Origin: Thermodesulfobacteriota bacterium
GTDB taxonomy: Bacteria; Desulfobacterota; Desulfobacteria; Desulfobacterales; Desulfosudaceae
Assembly (NCBI GenBank): GCA_040753795.1
Contig: JBFMDX010000001.1
Coordinates: 1 to 64,000, forward strand
Direction: 5' to 3'
DNA length: 64,000 bases
Shown: one piece after another, positions 6,791 through 47,192 of the stretch
How the letters are laid out: the number at the start of each line of letters is the position of its first letter
Position numbering within the stretch: the stretch's first letter is position 1
Program-made: the position numbers and the translations under genes
The notes under the pieces: model-generated
The model's input: only the letters and a program-made list of their open reading frames with translations
The model's database searches: none
Told to the model about the DNA's origin: nothing

Positions 6791-6850
6791 CATCAAAATG
6801 ATATTGTTCATTTTCGAAGCCATCTGTGTTTATCATAACCCGAATGGCAA

Positions 6851-7055
6851 TCTCGAAAAAAGCCGTTTTGTTCGCTCCCCGATCATTTTGGGCGGTCTCA
6901 ACGTCCCTGGCTGAATTTCTCGAACTCGGGCTGTTCATTAGGTCATGAAATGTCCGGGCTTCACCCTCGGACAGCGAGAAATTCTTTACGCCAGGGACCT
7001 TGAGCCCTTTCTCCCCAAAATGATCGCAGGTCGCTCACAAAAGACTTTTTCCGAG
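6851..7055 (+). repeat. Long imperfect hairpin A (cassette-hairpin family, + orientation)
   Basis: About 205 bp forming one long interrupted hairpin. The outer arms pair (CTCG-AAAAAG..., TTTTGT, GATCATTTTGGG on the left; CCCAAAATGATC, GCTCAC, CTTTTTCCGAG on the right), then CCCTGGC/GCCAGGG, then the family core: AATTTCTCGAACTCGGGCTG at 6914-6933 and CCCTCGGACAGCGAGAAATT near 6964-6983. The arms and apical loop match copies E and G in reverse orientation. It lies 3' of the gene at 7241-7762 on that gene's strand. Apparent reading frames inside it (for example 6945-7166) are translations of the repeat. Confidence 0.85.
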
Positions 7056-7223
7056 CCCGTCAGCCGTCAGCTCCGGCAACTTGTCAACCCTCTTGCCACA
7101 CACGATGCAACGTCCGGCAGCCAGAGGCAGCCAAGGTTTCCGCTGACTTGCTTTAAAGACGGTTAATGCTCATTTTTCCTAGTTTGTCCAAAAAGCCAGC
7201 CTGGCGATCCTTTTGCGCTGAAT

Positions 7224-7233
7224 GGTTAGCCGG
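7224..7233. other. Boundary-like site GTTAGCCG, 3' side of the 7241-7762 gene
   Basis: GTTAGCCG at 7225-7232 lies 9 bases beyond the stop of the minus-strand gene 7241-7762, and its exact inverse CGGCTAAC lies at 7787-7794 just before the start codon. In integron cassettes the core site at the gene's 5' end (GTTRRRY) is complementary to the inverse core at the start of its attC. On the gene's strand this side reads GGCTAAC followed by CATTC, also attC-like, but a matching second half is not evident. A suggestive resemblance only. Confidence 0.35.
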
Positions 7234-7240
7234 ATCCACT

Positions 7241-7762
7241 CTATTTTATACTGAGCCATAAAAAAGCAAAAAAATGTTTCACCCCGTCTTTTTCATAGAT
7301 CGTTAACTTTTCATGTGACGCACTTAAAACATTTAAACCATAGGAATTTAGTTCTTTGTTTATCTTTTCAACTGTGGCTGTGCCAAATACAGCATTGTTA
7401 ACCGCATCACGCAATGCAATCACTTTAGGATTGTGCATGTTCTCGGCTGATCTTAATGCTGCCTCAAGTTCAGTTGGATTGTTTTTTTGTAGCAGAGACA
7501 ATATTTCATTTTCAAATACAGAATCATCCAGCAATTCAACTACGAACAGGCTTGTTAACTGATTTAGCTTGCCTTCTTTTTTTAATTCCTCCAATGCCCC
7601 CGCAAGAAGTTTGTGCCCCACCTCGGTTGATGAATAATATTGAAGGATACATAATGAATCAAAACCTGATTGTTGAACTTCCCAGCCTGCAAATGCAATA
7701 TTGGCTTTAAAATGGAGAAGAATAACGAGCAATACAATATATCGAATTGGCCTCAAATTCAT
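7241..7762 (-). CDS. Secreted hypothetical protein, hairpin-bounded cassette 1
   Basis: I do not recognise this 173-residue protein. It has a classical signal peptide (residues 1-25, hydrophobic IVLLVILLHF, likely cut after AFA) and a mostly helical, Lys/Glu/Leu-rich mature part, suggesting export to the periplasm. The gene is visibly richer in A+T than its neighbours, suggesting acquisition. It is bracketed by hairpins A (3' side) and B (5' side), and closer in by an inverted 8-mer, GTTAGCCG/CGGCTAAC. A weak GAGG (CGAGGATTAATT then ATG) precedes the start. It looks like a mobile-cassette gene rather than a housekeeping one. Confidence 0.7.
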   Translation of the reverse strand: MNLRPIRYIVLLVILLHFKANIAFAGWEVQQSGFDSLCILQYYSSTEVGHKLLAGALEELKKEGKLNQLTSLFVVELLDDSVFENEILSLLQKNNPTELEAALRSAENMHNPKVIALRDAVNNAVFGTATVEKINKELNSYGLNVLSASHEKLTIYEKDGVKHFFAFLWLSIK

Positions 7763-7786
7763 AATTAATCCTCGTAAACTCGTTAA

Positions 7787-7794
7787 CGGCTAAC
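7787..7794. other. Boundary-like site CGGCTAAC, 5' side of the 7241-7762 gene
   Basis: Exact inverse of GTTAGCCG at 7225-7232. On the gene's strand it reads GTTAGCC about 25 bases before the ATG, which resembles (one mismatch) the GTTRRRY core that starts an integron cassette. It also forms a small palindrome with GTTA at 7782-7785. Confidence 0.3.
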
Positions 7795-7838
7795 AATGAA
7801 ATTATATCGCAGGGCACAGTTGTCCAAAACAATCTGAC

Positions 7839-8020
7839 CTCGTGGGAAGGCGTTGGTGTGAGCGCCTTTTGAGCCGTTGGGGGAAAAGCGGGTTTAAGCC
7901 GTCTGCGTCAAGAATTTCTCGCTGTCTGAGGGCGTCAGCCCGAGTTCGAGAAATTGACGCAGACGGTTTAAACCCGCCCCCAAAAGGCTCATGGCGCGAA
8001 TAACAATGCCTTTCCGCGAG
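7839..8020 (-). repeat. Long imperfect hairpin B (cassette-hairpin family, - orientation)
   Basis: About 182 bp: outer arms CTCGTGGGAAGG/CCTTTCCGCGAG, then GTGAGCGCCTTTTGAGCC with GGCTCATGGCGCG, then GCGGGTTTAAGCCGTCTGCGTC pairing with GACGCAGACGGTTTAAACCCGC in two shorter blocks, then the core AATTTCTCG...CGAGAAATT. The apical loop is shortened to a GGGC-GTCA-GCCC tip. Orientation is opposite to A. Arms match those of D and F in reverse. It lies 3' of the GNAT gene on that gene's strand and is followed by the 66-bp tail at 8021-8086. Confidence 0.85.
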
Positions 8021-8086
8021 ACATCTCAATCCTCTTGCCCTCCGGGCAAGGGCAACCCCGCCAAAGCGGGGCCCGTGTCACCCGTG
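8021..8086 (-). repeat. Tail repeat attached to hairpin B
   Basis: Sixty-six bases that recur almost unchanged after hairpin C (8721-8788). They contain two small perfect stems, CTTGCCC/GGGCAAG and CCCCGC/GCGGGG. On the minus strand the tail sits between the gene end and the hairpin, so it travels as part of the same unit as the GNAT and fosX genes. Confidence 0.8.
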
Positions 8087-8104
8087 ATCGCAGGGTTGTA
8101 TTTT

Positions 8105-8527
8105 TCATGGTTCTAAATATCCGCATTCTGGAGCGCCTATTCGTGGTTGCAGTATGCCCATTGCTGTTAGCATTTTTTTGAAACCGAACTTGCGATAGAA
8201 TCCTTCCCGGCCTGGAGCTGAAAATAAAATAATATTTGGAACTTGAAGCTTGTTGAATAGCAATCGAACCATTTCTTTGCCTATTCCTCGGCCATGATAC
8301 TCGGGAAGAAGCACAACATCATATATTGCTGCTTGGTATTCACCGTCAGAGAGGGCTCTGCACAAACCTATTAACATTTCATCGTCATATGTAAAAACAT
8401 ACGCATAGCTTCTTTGAAAAGCACGAGATAACATTTCAGGATCGCGTTCACCAAGCGGTGCAAGCCTGAACACCTCTGCTGCTTTTCCCCAATCAATGTT
8501 AGTTATTGTTGTCTCATAATGTATCAT
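8105..8527 (-). CDS. GNAT-family N-acetyltransferase, hairpin-bounded cassette 2
   Basis: A 140-residue GNAT-fold acyltransferase expected to transfer an acetyl group from acetyl-CoA to an amine; the substrate is unknown. The acetyl-CoA pyrophosphate-binding loop is YHGRGIGKEM (about residues 83-92), preceded by the beta-4 strand AAIYDVVLLPE and followed by LLFNKLQVPNIILFSAPG and the terminal FYRKFGFKKM, the usual GNAT order. Base composition is A+T-richer than the flanks. On its own strand the gene is followed by the tail repeat and hairpin B, and preceded by hairpin C. GNAT genes are frequent cargo of integron-type cassettes, which fits the context. Confidence 0.85.
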   Translation of the reverse strand: MIHYETTITNIDWGKAAEVFRLAPLGERDPEMLSRAFQRSYAYVFTYDDEMLIGLCRALSDGEYQAAIYDVVLLPEYHGRGIGKEMVRLLFNKLQVPNIILFSAPGREGFYRKFGFKKMLTAMGILQPRIGAPECGYLEP

Positions 8528-8552
8528 GGCACCGTTGGCCGTAAAATCTGAC

Positions 8553-8720
8553 CTCGCGGGAAGGCGTCGGGGTGAGCGCCTTTTGAGCCGTTGGGGTTAC
8601 GCGGGTTTAAACCGTCTGCGTCAAGAATTTCTCGCTGTTTGAGGGCGTCAGCCCGAGTTCGAGAAATTTAAACCCGCCCCCAAAAGGCTCATGGCGCGAA
8701 CAACACAGGCCTCCCGCGAG
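8553..8720 (-). repeat. Long imperfect hairpin C (cassette-hairpin family, - orientation)
   Basis: About 168 bp, the shortest complete copy. Outer arms CTCGCGGGAAGG/CCTCCCGCGAG, then GTGAGCGCCTTTTGAGCC/GGCTCATGGCGCG, GCGGGTTTAAA/TTTAAACCCGC, then the core AATTTCTCG/CGAGAAATT with a GGGC-GTCA-GCCC tip. Compared with B, one arm has lost the GACGCAGACGG block. It lies 3' of the fosX-like gene on that gene's strand and is followed by the same tail repeat. Confidence 0.85.
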
Positions 8721-8788
8721 ACCTTTTTCAATCCTCTTGCCCTTCGGGCACGGGCAACCCCGCCAAAGTGGGGCCCGGGCCACCCGTG
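8721..8788 (-). repeat. Tail repeat attached to hairpin C
   Basis: Second copy of the 66-bp tail at 8021-8086, with a few substitutions (CTTGCCCTTCGGGCACG and CCCCGCC/GTGGGG stems). The stop codon of the fosX-like gene (8728-8730) lies inside it, so the last 20 or so residues of that protein are encoded by the repeat. Confidence 0.8.
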
Positions 8789-9866: not shown

Positions 9867-10436
9867 CTACCGAACCACTTCCTTTTTTATCACCACGCAC
9901 CCCTTTCCCGCGGGCATGAGAAATATCTTCAGCGTCCCGCCATCCAGCAGAACAATATCGTTCTTCAGCACGCCGATCCGCTTTAGGTCCTTGAATACGA
10001 TCTTTTCCATGTCCTGGGGGCTCCGGTCGACATATTCCACCGTGTCATACACCGCGTCCTGGTTGGGAAAAAAACTGGCGCTGGCATAGCACATGGATTT
10101 GTCCGGCCGGACGACCTCAAGGGAGGTGGAAAAAACATGCTGGTCGGGCAGTGGATGAACCGGGAAAAGAAAAGCGCCGCTCTGGTTGCCGGCGGTAAGA
10201 AAATTGACCACCTGGTTGATGCGGCCGGCGCTGGAAAGCACGCCCATGCCCACCGCCTGCTGGGTGATCGAGTTTACCGCCGGTCCGGCCGGCTGGGGAG
10301 GAACCGCGTCGGTCTTGTTGCGGGAAGCTTCCGTCTTCGGTTGCGCCGGCGCTTCGTTTTCAGCCGCCAGCAGGCCGGGTAAGGCCAGCACTATTACCAT
10401 CAGGAAAAATACCGTCCCACGGGCCGCATTTTTCAT
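9867..10436 (-). CDS. Secreted hypothetical protein
   Basis: I do not recognise a family in this 189-residue protein. It has a signal peptide (residues 1-25, FFLMVIVLALPGLLA, cut after LLAAE), a low-complexity Pro/Ala/Glu/Lys linker (26-50), and a globular C-terminal domain with several Val/Ile-rich strands (IVFKDLKRIGVLKNDIVLLDGG, KIFLMPAGKGCVVIKKE). Periplasmic location is likely. It lies 58 bases downstream of rlpA on the same strand and could be in the same operon; no ordered motif points to an enzyme. Confidence 0.7.
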   Translation of the reverse strand: MKNAARGTVFFLMVIVLALPGLLAAENEAPAQPKTEASRNKTDAVPPQPAGPAVNSITQQAVGMGVLSSAGRINQVVNFLTAGNQSGAFLFPVHPLPDQHVFSTSLEVVRPDKSMCYASASFFPNQDAVYDTVEYVDRSPQDMEKIVFKDLKRIGVLKNDIVLLDGGTLKIFLMPAGKGCVVIKKEVVR

Positions 10437-15092: not shown

Positions 15093-16205
15093 TTATTCCG
15101 GTTTCCGGCTCTGGAGATGCGTTTTAAAGGCCAGCAAATCCTTGTCACCGGGCGTCAGCTTCAGGCCGGCCTCCACCCAGACCAGTGCCTGATGCTTGTC
15201 ATGCAGCCGCAGGTACCCGCGGACCGCCTTTTTTATCAGTTCCGGATCCTGCTTTTCGATCAGCCGCTGTTCGTAAAGGCGAACCGCTTCCTGTGGGATT
15301 CCCGCCGTGAAGTTAACGTCGGCCAGCAGCGCGGCCTCCTCTCCGGACAGGGGGGATAGATAGCTGTAGGCGGTCAGAGCAGTCAGTGCCCGGCGGAAAT
15401 CCTGGCGGGAAAGCAGGAGCCAGGCCTGAAGCTTCCACCATTTGGGTTCCAGCGGATCGTCCCGGGTGTAGGCCTCGGCCCGTGCCATCGCCTTTTCTTC
15501 CCGGTGGAGCTCCAGGTAAAGATGGATCAGTGTTTCCCGCCATGCCTGCCGATCCTTCAGATCCGCCTGGTCGGCCAGAAATTCGATATGCGGCAGGGCC
15601 TGCTCAGGCCTTTCCAGCGCCAGGTAAAGCCGGGCCAGGGTCTGGCGGCGCTCCGGCGTCAGGGCGTCCGGATGATTTTTCAGCAGCCTGTCGAAAACCG
15701 TAAGCGCCAGGGAATAATCTTTGGCTTCCATGAAGCTGACCGCCCCGTAATAAAGCGCTTCGACAGCCTGATTCCCGGACGCGTCATAGGCGGCGGTAAA
15801 TTCCCGGGCGGCTTCCGCCGGCCGGTTCAGATCATATAATCCCCGGGCCAGATTAAGACGGGCTTCGGTAAAGTCGGGTTTCCGGTTGACGGCGGCCTGA
15901 TAGTGGGAAACGGCGGCGGCCGGGTCTTTCAGCAGCAGGCGACAGTTGCCGATCATAAAATCGATCAGCGGGTGGGTATACCCCCGGCTGTCCGCCTCGT
16001 CCGCGGAAACGGTCTTTTGCCGTGACTGAAACGATTCCAGCAGTTCGAGGGCTTCCCTTGTTTTTCCCCCGGCCAGCAGTTGCCGGGACTTGCTGACGGC
16101 GAGGGCGGCCGGGGCGGGCGTCTTGCCGGCATCAGCGGCCATGACCGGTCCGCAGACCCCGAAGGCCAGGATCAGCATCAGACAGATAACACCTGGATAC
16201 TTCAT
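15093..16205 (-). CDS. TPR-repeat periplasmic protein of the Ton operon
   Basis: A 370-residue exported protein (signal peptide residues 1-23, MLILAFGVCGPVMAADA) made almost entirely of tetratricopeptide repeats from about residue 75 to 360 (recurring AVSHYQAAVNRKPDF, A..LYL.L..PEQAL and similar 34-residue units). Its ATG overlaps the tonB stop by four bases, so it is translated with TonB. TPR proteins regularly follow tonB in Desulfobacterota exb/ton clusters; the role is presumably as a periplasmic adaptor, which is inference. Not an enzyme. Confidence 0.85.
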   Translation of the reverse strand: MKYPGVICLMLILAFGVCGPVMAADAGKTPAPAALAVSKSRQLLAGGKTREALELLESFQSRQKTVSADEADSRGYTHPLIDFMIGNCRLLLKDPAAAVSHYQAAVNRKPDFTEARLNLARGLYDLNRPAEAAREFTAAYDASGNQAVEALYYGAVSFMEAKDYSLALTVFDRLLKNHPDALTPERRQTLARLYLALERPEQALPHIEFLADQADLKDRQAWRETLIHLYLELHREEKAMARAEAYTRDDPLEPKWWKLQAWLLLSRQDFRRALTALTAYSYLSPLSGEEAALLADVNFTAGIPQEAVRLYEQRLIEKQDPELIKKAVRGYLRLHDKHQALVWVEAGLKLTPGDKDLLAFKTHLQSRKPE

Positions 16206-44892: not shown

Positions 44893-45100
44893 GACGGCGC
44901 AAAAAGTGTGGTTGTTCGCACCCTGATCCTTTTGGGGCCGGCTGCCCTCATCCGCGGCGTTTCTCGAACTCGGGCTGTCCTGAATCTTTAAAATATTTGC
45001 CTACACCCTCGGACAGCGAGAAACGCTCTTCGCGGATGACGCCAGCCGGCCTTTTCCCAAAAGGCTCAACGGCGCTCACACCCATACTTTTTGCGCCGTC
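44893..45100 (+). repeat. Long imperfect hairpin D (cassette-hairpin family, + orientation)
   Basis: About 208 bp. The outer arms are perfect for 14 bases: GACGGCGCAAAAAG and CTTTTTGCGCCGTC; then GGTTGTTCGC, CCTTTTGGGGCCGGCTG and CATCCGCGGCGTTTCTCG pair with the right side through CAGCCGGCCTTTTCCC and CGAGAAACGC..GCGGATG. Core: TTTCTCGAACTCGGGCTG at 44963-44980, CCTCGGACAGCGAGAAA near 45009-45025. It starts two bases after the PurF-like stop and could also end that transcript. It is 3' of the gene at 45160 on that gene's strand. Nearly identical in arms to F. Confidence 0.9.
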
Positions 45101-45159
45101 CGGCCTATTCGCGGCGGCTTTTTACCATCGCAATCATGACGCTGTAAGAGCTTTTAGCA

Positions 45160-45849
45160 TTAAAAACTCAAATATTTCTTTTTTGATAGAATGAATTCAT
45201 TTTCTGTTTCATCAAATATATACAAGTAAATTGTGACACCATTCATTTCAGGTTTAGTTACGGCAATTTCCGGATATTTTTTATTGTTTAACCAAAAGAT
45301 CTCAAACGCCCCGCCTAAACCCTCTTCCGAATGAACATCAGAGTATTCCTCGATATCAATAGCTACGTATTTCGAAAAAGGTGCTGCTGAAATGTATGAG
45401 CTACTGCTAAGAATCTGGTATGAATTATCACTAAAAGCGTACTCGTTTACTACTGTAATTAAAAATAAAGTGATATCTTTTGATTCATACAAATAATAGA
45501 CTTTAGCTCCGGCTTCTGGCCAATATGGATGATTCCACCCATCAGGTAATTTTGCTCCTTTGATTTTATCTGATATTTTGAAAGATGATCCATAATATCG
45601 CTTTAGGTTTTCCATCTTTAGTTTCGAATATTTTGTTACAATAGATATCTCACCGATATTTTTTTTATTGTAAGACAACCAATCTTTATTGCATTGATTC
45701 TCCCACCAATCAATGAATTTAGAACAAAGGACTGAACTGCCAAGCTCTGAACTTTGCGTCTTTTCCATAGATTTTATCATTTCATTTGCATAGGGCGAGG
45801 CTATAAAACACAAAACGATCATAATGCTGACGAAAAGCTTATTTACCAT
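45160..45849 (-). CDS. Secreted hypothetical protein, hairpin-bounded cassette 4
   Basis: A 229-residue protein with a signal peptide (residues 1-21, KLFVSIMIVLCFIASPY, cut after PYA). The mature protein is rich in Tyr, Ser, Asn and Lys, with many beta-prone stretches (TLFLITVVNEYAFSD, MNGVTIYLYIFDETENEFILSKK). No family is recognised. The gene is the most A+T-rich in the window, clearly unlike the flanking genes, so acquisition is likely. It lies between hairpins D (3') and E (5') and is transcribed on the minus strand. No good ribosome site is seen at 45850. Confidence 0.7.
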   Translation of the reverse strand: MVNKLFVSIMIVLCFIASPYANEMIKSMEKTQSSELGSSVLCSKFIDWWENQCNKDWLSYNKKNIGEISIVTKYSKLKMENLKRYYGSSFKISDKIKGAKLPDGWNHPYWPEAGAKVYYLYESKDITLFLITVVNEYAFSDNSYQILSSSSYISAAPFSKYVAIDIEEYSDVHSEEGLGGAFEIFWLNNKKYPEIAVTKPEMNGVTIYLYIFDETENEFILSKKKYLSF

Positions 45850-45912
45850 TTTAATTCTACCATTGTATTTGGATAGAAAGAATCTTCACACATTCGTACA
45901 AATAAAATCGCC

Positions 45913-46120
45913 GCATTCGGTAAAGGGGTTTTGTGAGCGACTTGCGAGCATTTTGGGAAGCAAGGGGGGAAGGATTTCGGCGTAAAGAATTTCTCGCTGT
46001 TTGAGGGTGAAGCCCGGACAATTCATGAAATATTGAACAGCCCGAGTTCGAGAAATTCAGCCGGAATCATTCAACCCGCCCAAAATGCTCGGGGAGCGAA
46101 CCCAAACCCCTTCCGAATGC
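45913..46120 (-). repeat. Long imperfect hairpin E (cassette-hairpin family, - orientation)
   Basis: About 208 bp. Outer arms GCATTCGGTAAAGGGG/CCCCTTCCGAATGC; then GAGCATTTTGGG/CCCAAAATGCTC and the core AATTTCTCGCTGTTTGAGGG/CAGCCCGAGTTCGAGAAATT. Orientation is opposite to D. Compared with A, the pair GAGC/GCTC replaces GATC/GATC, a compensatory change. It is 5' of the gene at 45160 and adjoins hairpin F, 53 bases away. Nearly identical in arms to G. Confidence 0.88.
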
Positions 46121-46173
46121 TACCCCCTTGTTCATGCATGACTTCTGCTGGTGAAGAACATAGCATGCGATGA

Positions 46174-46374
46174 TGCAAAAAGCATGTTTGTTCGCGCCCT
46201 GACCCTTTTGGGGCCGGCTGCCCTCATCCGCGGCGTTTCTCGAACTCGGGCTGCGCTGGAATCTTTTCAAAATATCTGCCTACACCCTCGGACAGCGAGA
46301 AACGCTCTTCGCGGATGACGCCATCCGGCTCTTTCCCAAAAGGCTCAACGGCGCTCACACCCACACTTTTTGCA
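46174..46374 (+). repeat. Long imperfect hairpin F (cassette-hairpin family, + orientation)
   Basis: About 201 bp, a near copy of D. The outer stem is TGCAAAAAG/CTTTTTGCA, where D has CGCAAAAAG/CTTTTTGCG: a paired change of C-G to T-A. Then TTCGCGCCCTGACCCTTTTGGGGCCGG-type left arm (read in parts), TTTCTCGAACTCGGGCTG, an apical loop of about 36 bases, CCTCGGACAGCGAGAAA and GGCTCAACGGCGC. It is 3' of the L,D-transpeptidase gene, 40 bases from its stop. Confidence 0.88.
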
Positions 46375-46413
46375 CAGCCTCGGCTCGTCAGTTGTAGTGA
46401 GCAGTTGCGCGTA

Positions 46414-46908
46414 TTACGGAAGTATATCAATCGGGGTGCCTGCATCTACAAGCTTCCACATTGCGTCGATATCCGCATTGGACAATGCAATACATCCCTT
46501 TGTCCAGTTCACTCGTTGGGCGAGAAAGGAAAGCCAACTCAAGCCGTTTTTCTGCCCGTGGACCATAATGTCCCCTCCTGGGGAGACTCCCATTTTTTTC
46601 GCGCGGGCGAGATCTTGTTGGTTTGGGTAGGATACATGAAAGGCCTTGTAGTAGGCGCTATTCGATTTCTTTGAGTCGAGGATGTAGCGACCTTCAGGAG
46701 TCTTTCCATCTCCCTGCCGCTCTTTGGGCCCAGTAGGGTTACCACCGAAAACCACATGGTAGGAGGCCAGCAACTCCCCGTTTCTGTATAGGGAAAGTCG
46801 ATTCTTGCTCTTCTCGACGACAACCAGGTCGGCCTTCTCCGCAGCCAACGAAGCGACTGAATTCAGTAACAGGCAAAAGGCGAGAAGTGCGTTGAGTATC
46901 TTCATCAT
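46414..46908 (-). CDS. L,D-transpeptidase (YkuD) family protein, hairpin-bounded cassette 5
   Basis: A 164-residue exported YkuD-domain protein: signal peptide residues 1-20 (ALLAFCLLLNSVASLA), then DLVVVEKSKNRLSLYRNGELL and the catalytic half with HG (VHGQKNGLSWL) and the nucleophile Cys in TKGCIALSNADIDAMW (SxGCxR-type, here KGCIAL). It is likely to cross-link or modify peptidoglycan. ATG 46908 is followed by a second ATG; the upstream frame (to 47079) is hairpin translation. The sequence GTTAGGCTC directly before the start is an integron-core-like 7-mer (GTTRRRY). It lies between hairpins F and G. Confidence 0.85.
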   Translation of the reverse strand: MMKILNALLAFCLLLNSVASLAAEKADLVVVEKSKNRLSLYRNGELLASYHVVFGGNPTGPKERQGDGKTPEGRYILDSKKSNSAYYKAFHVSYPNQQDLARAKKMGVSPGGDIMVHGQKNGLSWLSFLAQRVNWTKGCIALSNADIDAMWKLVDAGTPIDILP

Positions 46909-46912
46909 GAGC

Positions 46913-46919
46913 CTAACAT
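46913..46919 (-). other. Core-site-like GTTAGGC before the L,D-transpeptidase start
   Basis: On the minus strand GTTAGGC ends 4 bases before the ATG at 46908, the position of the conserved 7-mer GTTRRRY at the start of integron gene cassettes. The plus strand reads GCCTAAC. No matching inverse core is evident after the stop codon at 46414, so this may be chance. Confidence 0.3.
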
Positions 46920-46965
46920 TATCTTTAGGTAGAAGATCTCCCCCTGTTGGCACAAATAAACCGCC

Positions 46966-47173
46966 GCATTCGGCAAAGGGGTTTTGTGAGCGACCCGCGA
47001 GCATTTTGGGGAACAAGGGTTGACGGATTTCGGCGCAAAGAATTTCTCGCTGTTTGAGGGTGAATCCCGGACAATTCATGAAATATTGAACAGCCCGAGT
47101 TCGAGAAATTCAGCCGGAATCCTTCAACCCGCCCAAAATGCTCGGGGAACGAACCAAATCCCCTTCCGAATGT
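46966..47173 (-). repeat. Long imperfect hairpin G (cassette-hairpin family, - orientation)
   Basis: About 208 bp, a near copy of E: outer arms GCATTCGGCAAAGGGG/CCCCTTCCGAATGT, then GAGCATTTTGGGG/CCCAAAATGCTC, then the core AATTTCTCGCTGTTTGAGGG/CAGCCCGAGTTCGAGAAATT. The left flank is shared with E (ACAAATAAA before CGCCGCATTCGG), fixing the element's edge. It lies 5' of the L,D-transpeptidase gene and 3' of the GlmS-like gene (20 bases from its stop). Confidence 0.88.
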
Positions 47174-47192
47174 TACCTCTTATTATAAAACG

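Follow-up and report, generated by a model that had tools for sequence, protein, structure and literature searches.

Paired Hairpin Repeats Framing Single, Cassette-like Genes in the Genome of a Thermodesulfobacteriota Bacterium

Results and Discussion

Layout of the Hairpin Modules in the Window

Between its purF-like and glmS-like genes, the window (the whole 64,000-nucleotide stretch of DNA analyzed here) carries two consecutive modules, each of which consists of a single minus-strand gene set between two long hairpins. In the first, hairpin D (type 1, 44893–45100, plus strand) lies on the 3′ side of the framed gene (45160–45849, minus strand, G+C 0.33), and hairpin E (type 2, 45905–46124, minus strand) lies on its 5′ side, with a candidate attI-like or −10-like site, TTCTATCCAAATACAATG (45861–45878, minus strand), which is conserved across E-type frames, located 5′ of the gene. 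The second module follows the same plan, with hairpin F (type 1, 46175–46373, plus strand), a second framed gene (46414–46908, minus strand), a putative attI-like or −10-like site, TTCTACCTAAAGATAATG|TTAGGC (46911–46934, minus strand), 5′ of this gene, and hairpin G (type 2, 46958–47177, minus strand). The spacer that joins the two modules (46125–46174, no strand) is kept in other tandem junctions in the genome (on contigs C2 and C6, see below). The first gene encodes a secreted protein of unrecognized family, for which a Pfam search returned no match, and the second encodes an L,D-transpeptidase (Pfam YkuD, E 4e-20), the likely start of which is position 46908, because the longer start at 47079 enters hairpin G.

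All four hairpins are long imperfect palindromes of ~200 nt, which fall into two types (D/F and E/G) that point inward, with 92–94% identity between D and F, and 93% between E and G. Compared to shuffled sequence, both D and E fold far better (z-scores of −11.0 and −5.5, respectively). An earlier note on this DNA had described D and F, and likewise E and G, as near copies, with D–E and F–G each bracketing one of two unrelated minus-strand genes, and E and F nearly abutting at a distance of 53 bases; this description is borne out, with an E–F distance of about 50 bases in our measurements. Hairpin D starts 2 bases past the stop codon of the purF-like gene and hairpin G ends ~15 bases from that of the glmS-like gene, and thus the insert sits between two convergent genes, which it separates, as was also claimed.

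The window contains another hairpin locus (6842–8738), comprising a hairpin of the same family (6842–7069, plus strand), a framed cassette gene of unrecognized family (7241–7762, minus strand) with its attC site (7109–7231, minus strand; 77.1 bits, E 4.6e-13 in the genome), a second hairpin (7794–8034, minus strand), a framed GNAT acetyltransferase gene (8105–8473, minus strand), and a third hairpin (8526–8738, minus strand). The R″ box of this attC, CGGCTAAC, is complementary to the cassette start, GTTAGCCG. Two more stretches of the window, 9961–10180 and 15361–15580, also fold with many long-range pairs.

The Hairpin Family across the Genome

The assembly comprises 41 contigs, denoted C1, C2, and so forth, and was compared with a set of genomes that contains no congeneric genome. 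A profile search, at the threshold used, yields at least 69 members of the hairpin family in this genome. The 18-nt core, TTTCTCGAACTCGGGCTG, occurs 47 times exactly and 62 times with at most one mismatch, versus 0 times for a reversed control, and this count, together with the 69 profile hairpins, indicates a repeat family and not a chance resemblance. The same core is absent from all 388 of the 388 other genomes of the class, a search of 57 relatives gave nothing except one chance match within a gene, and the core pattern has no match in GTDB r220 contigs or IMG/VR. A known RNA family was considered and rejected, as an Rfam search returned only weak SRP-like noise.

The family has two broad types, TTCGCGCC..TGACCCTTTTGGGGCCGG and TTCGCTCC..GATCATTTTGGGCGG, often with one of each at opposite ends of a module. 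Among the 29 neighboring hairpin pairs less than 4 kb apart, 18 point inward and 4 outward, and three of these four outward pairs are tandem junctions with 9–14 bp between profile ends, like that between E and F. Inverted copies on both sides, which are a trait of MITEs and of integron mobilization units, are therefore present in the 18 inward pairs, with the two sides usually being of different types. Only within the E/D subfamily is gene direction constant relative to hairpin type. The stems covary, with at least two Watson–Crick types at 26 of the 34 consensus pairs and 94% of cells paired (31 short-apex copies), and terminate in an A-tract/T-tract.

Framed Genes and the Conserved Site Upstream of Them

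Some 26 genes are framed by hairpins in this genome, usually one per frame, and most of them are A+T-rich, with a G+C content of roughly 0.33–0.46 compared to about 0.6 in neighboring genes. Their products include toxin–antitoxin pairs (HigB-type and YafQ-like), a GNAT acetyltransferase, ORF6N and SH3 proteins, small secreted proteins, and lipoproteins, and many have no Pfam match. Products of these kinds are common among integron cassettes. Beyond two framed genes, at C2:13048–13332 and C11:104651–104962, we observe a different repeat, readable as KVPKETxPGSAGHAxGV, where the second hairpin would be expected.

The frame formed by E and D is also found in an array on C2, at C2:49842, and on C6, C7, and C14, with different cargo or none, such that the suggestion of a fixed frame carrying varied genes is well supported. 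These frames are 84–93% identical. Modules of this type share a conserved site, TAATTACAATG|TTAGGC, 5′ of the gene, and when the interiors of E-type hairpins are aligned, conservation ends at about TTCTRCCTAATTACAATGTTAGGC, directly 5′ of the gene start, with unrelated sequence beyond. In sequence, this stretch resembles an attI-like site in which crossover would take place at G|TT, and the TACAAT/TATAAT within it could be a −10 promoter element. A possible empty frame is C14:10404–10900, where the two hairpins enclose ..CCATGGACG|TTGCAAAAAG. Searched genome-wide as a plain pattern, the E-type site matched only known modules. The attI region of an integrase lies next to the cassette in one module, at C1:482, the other modules having only the short, similar A+T-rich site.

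Could such frames simply be old and conserved, with genes exchanged by homologous recombination through shared hairpin sequence and independently of IntI? Frames that are 84–93% identical would indeed recombine, but conservation stops at the site 5′ of the gene and not within the hairpins, and the attC sites at gene ends and the match between cassette start and R″ (see below) would be left unexplained, making this the least probable of the explanations weighed here, and one to which we give little credence.

Integrases, attC Sites, and Cassette Boundaries

Two proteins encoded in this genome score above the TIGR02249 cutoff for integron integrases (E 1e-131 and 3e-126), and a third integron-type recombinase (C11:325–1329) is of similar kind, the TIGR02249 scores covering the other two. 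The three integron-type genes (C33:378–1691, C11:325–1329, and C11:~140.3–141.5 kb) all face contig ends, and thus their cassette arrays are probably missing from the assembly or broken in it. Two of the three carry an N-terminal extension of ~95 residues. None of the hairpin modules examined has an intI gene, the integrases being located elsewhere, and there is no hairpin in the 0.4 kb upstream of the integrase genes (up to the contig ends), nor are there similar hairpins beside related integrases at three Deltaproteobacteria/Desulfobacterales loci.

At the end of contig C10 there is a real attC array, with four sites and the expected conserved R″-L″-L′-R′ pairing. Individual attC candidates gave unimpressive folds at first, and the consensus of the C10 array resolved the pairing. 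We built a covariance model from seven attC sites, all from outside the hairpin modules, which identified 10 further sites in the genome. Four of these 10 lie within 1 kb of a hairpin, a zone that makes up 2.4% of the genome (p 6e-5). These hairpin-associated sites, at C1:7109 (in the window), C2:38000, C26:45268, and C1:430024, have E values of 1e-6 to 5e-13. The attC structure at C1:482 was recognized by eye.

An integron cassette opens with (G)TTRRRY, a sequence complementary to R″ in the attC of that same cassette. When the position of this core is fixed by the conserved site, three of 10 modules show an 8/8 match between core and R″, compared to 0 of 90 cross-comparisons, with matches of 7/8 in C1:429 and 7/7 in C1:482. 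A free scan for core/R″ complementarity likewise gives an excess at 8 nt (p 0.003–0.007), and a marginal one at 7 nt (p about 0.05). The clearest module is C1:482373–484016. Its leader matches, with 83% identity over 95 nt (E 1.7e-20), the attI region that lies upstream of the third integrase, and is followed in order by G|TTCGCC, the gene, the R″ box GGCGAAC, and a compact attC-like hairpin. A clear attC or core/R″ match is found in only about 5 of the some 26 framed genes, and therefore some of these genes may have arrived in another way.

The word “cassette”, as used in the earlier note, can be taken in its strict, integron meaning for several modules, in which attC sites or core/R″ matches are observed. 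In D–E and F–G, no attC is recognizable and the cores match no R″. We count D–E and F–G among the putative integron units on the strength of their shared frame, as they have the same hairpins, the same site, and the same spacer between E and F as modules on C2, of which C2:38000 has an attC and C2:40797 an 8/8 core match.

Comparison with Relatives

The purF-like gene is conserved in relatives, and none of the other window genes tested was found adjoining it. The adjacency of the purF-like and glmS-like genes is absent in 19 relatives having several kb of flank, and ancient fixed synteny of the two framed genes and their hairpins was not seen. Elsewhere in the genome, other gene pairs can be compared directly. 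In six relatives, hemC and cobA/hemD directly adjoin or overlap each other, but in this genome 2,138 bp separate them, and a module of three hairpins and a cassette-like gene lies between (C7:125520–127411). Similarly, rarA overlaps or directly adjoins an ABC gene in both family members, but in this genome the two are separated by 268 bp that include a solo hairpin (C2:451942–452142), the iorA–iorB gap is about 16–71 bp in four relatives versus 199 bp here, around a solo hairpin (C4:247806–247986), and the oppC–oppA gap is also larger than in relatives. The solo hairpins in the rarA–ABC and iorA–iorB gaps are present in this genome only. We conclude from these enlarged gaps that insertion of both modules and solo hairpins took place in this lineage. 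We note that an imperfect 22-bp direct repeat surrounds the iorA–iorB copy.

A test for target duplications based on shared words was null, and one based on alignment was suggestive, in the case of solo hairpins, under one setting of the interval compared, with another setting giving p values of 0.13 (solo hairpins) and 0.89 (module hairpins). The proposal of a transposon-like carrier is thus supported only in part, by the absence of modules and solo hairpins between the same gene pairs in relatives, whereas the tests established no target duplication. Movement by IS200/IS605 or RAYT elements was considered and rejected, as two Y1 transposases are present, with no significant family hairpin within 1.5 kb.

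Interpretation of the Modules

Taking these observations into account, we consider it reasonably probable that each module is an integron unit that holds a single cassette and has no integrase, and that such units, set between MITE-like hairpins, have spread to sites between genes. In the direction of the gene, such a unit would run from a type-2 hairpin through the attI-like site, the captured gene, and the attC of that gene, which would often be decayed, to a type-1 hairpin. The attI-like site, which is short and A+T-rich, may double as a −10 promoter element, and cassettes would be supplied by the resident IntI integrases, recombining at G|TT. The hairpins would be MITE-like mobile ends, inserting singly or as facing pairs and spreading units between chromosomal genes, with neighboring units giving rise to tandem arrays such as D–E/F–G, and their stems might work as single strands in folded form, or might terminate transcription.

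A rival explanation, which we regard as unlikely, is that of a composite transposon, in which MITE-like ends moved by some transposase bracketed whatever lay between them, cassettes included, with the attI-like stretch being a mere promoter. Solo hairpins inserted between operon genes, inward pairs with tandem junctions, and the several framed genes that have no attC would all fit this explanation; however, the two ends are of different types, attC sites and core/R″ matches are enriched, an attI region is present in the module at C1:482, and neither an established target duplication nor a family-linked transposase (in a search covering Y1 transposases and tyrosine recombinases) has emerged. 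More improbable again is a reading in which the hairpins, with no role in capture, gathered around foreign genes as insulators or as transcription terminators working in both directions, or else constitute a family of structured RNAs: covarying stems that end in an A-tract/T-tract, and the start of D just past a stop codon, agree with such a function, which nevertheless leaves the inward orientation, the solo copies inside operons, and the link with attC and attI sequence unexplained.

Returning to integrase-less integron units, a bolder version, which we put forward tentatively and hold to be possible rather than probable, is that of a decentralized integron, in which the hairpin-framed attI-like sites would be mobile, scattered landing pads, at which integrases place single cassettes at dozens of loci. 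Each locus might then, with similar reservation, have its own promoter and boundaries, instead of all cassettes sharing one promoter in a single array. In a classical integron, which holds all of its cassettes in a single array, good expression is limited to the first few. If the landing pads are real, captured genes could be expressed from many loci simultaneously, and the system would show how cassettes turn into settled chromosomal genes.

Relation to Known Systems

Searches of open-access papers brought up no account of a genome-wide, hairpin-framed system. The closest precedents are MITE-flanked class 1 integrons (PMC10969869) and attG integration (PMC11023631, PMC12901181). Integron mobilization units and MITE-flanked class 1 integrons, of Acinetobacter and Enterobacter, likewise have inverted-repeat elements on either side of an integron piece, the known cases being resistance integrons, few in number, with identical MITEs at their flanks (PMC10969869). 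By comparison, this one genome holds at least 69 hairpins, which are of two main types, and some 26 genes in frames. In attG integration (Loot et al. 2024, as cited in PMC11023631 and PMC12901181), cassettes enter ordinary genomic sites. This resembles our modules in that single cassettes occupy chromosomal sites off the integron platform, and differs in that the receiving site here lies within a repeated, conserved element.

The modules also resemble CALIN and sedentary chromosomal integrons in having attC cassettes, small A+T-rich genes, toxin–antitoxin and unrecognized cargo, and integrases in the same genome, but the cassettes are dispersed singly in hairpin frames and not in one array. 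With BIMEs, REP pairs, and RAYT systems they share palindromes, inverted pairs, solo and paired copies, and an intergenic location, but the stems are 200 nt long with conserved internal boxes, they frame whole genes, and Y1 transposases are not associated. A gene-capture system normally kept to one array thus appears dispersed in small framed units over the chromosome. If the landing pads are real, MITE-flanked integron pieces, of which a few cases are known, would also exist as a natural system spanning a whole genome. The modules offer a link, open to testing, between integron recombination and long palindromic repeats.

Hairpin Apices

Finally, two features of the hairpin apices can be described. 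The hairpin at C2:37751–38022 has a different palindrome, GGTAGGGGCACGGCGCGCCGTGCCCCTAC, in place of its apex, which would fit the insertion of a REP-like element there. Short-apex hairpins (for example, C1:295115 and C14:30621) have GGGCGAAGCCC on the bottom strand of the apex, and within this sequence lies GCGAAGC, an unusually stable DNA minihairpin that may bear on single-strand folding.
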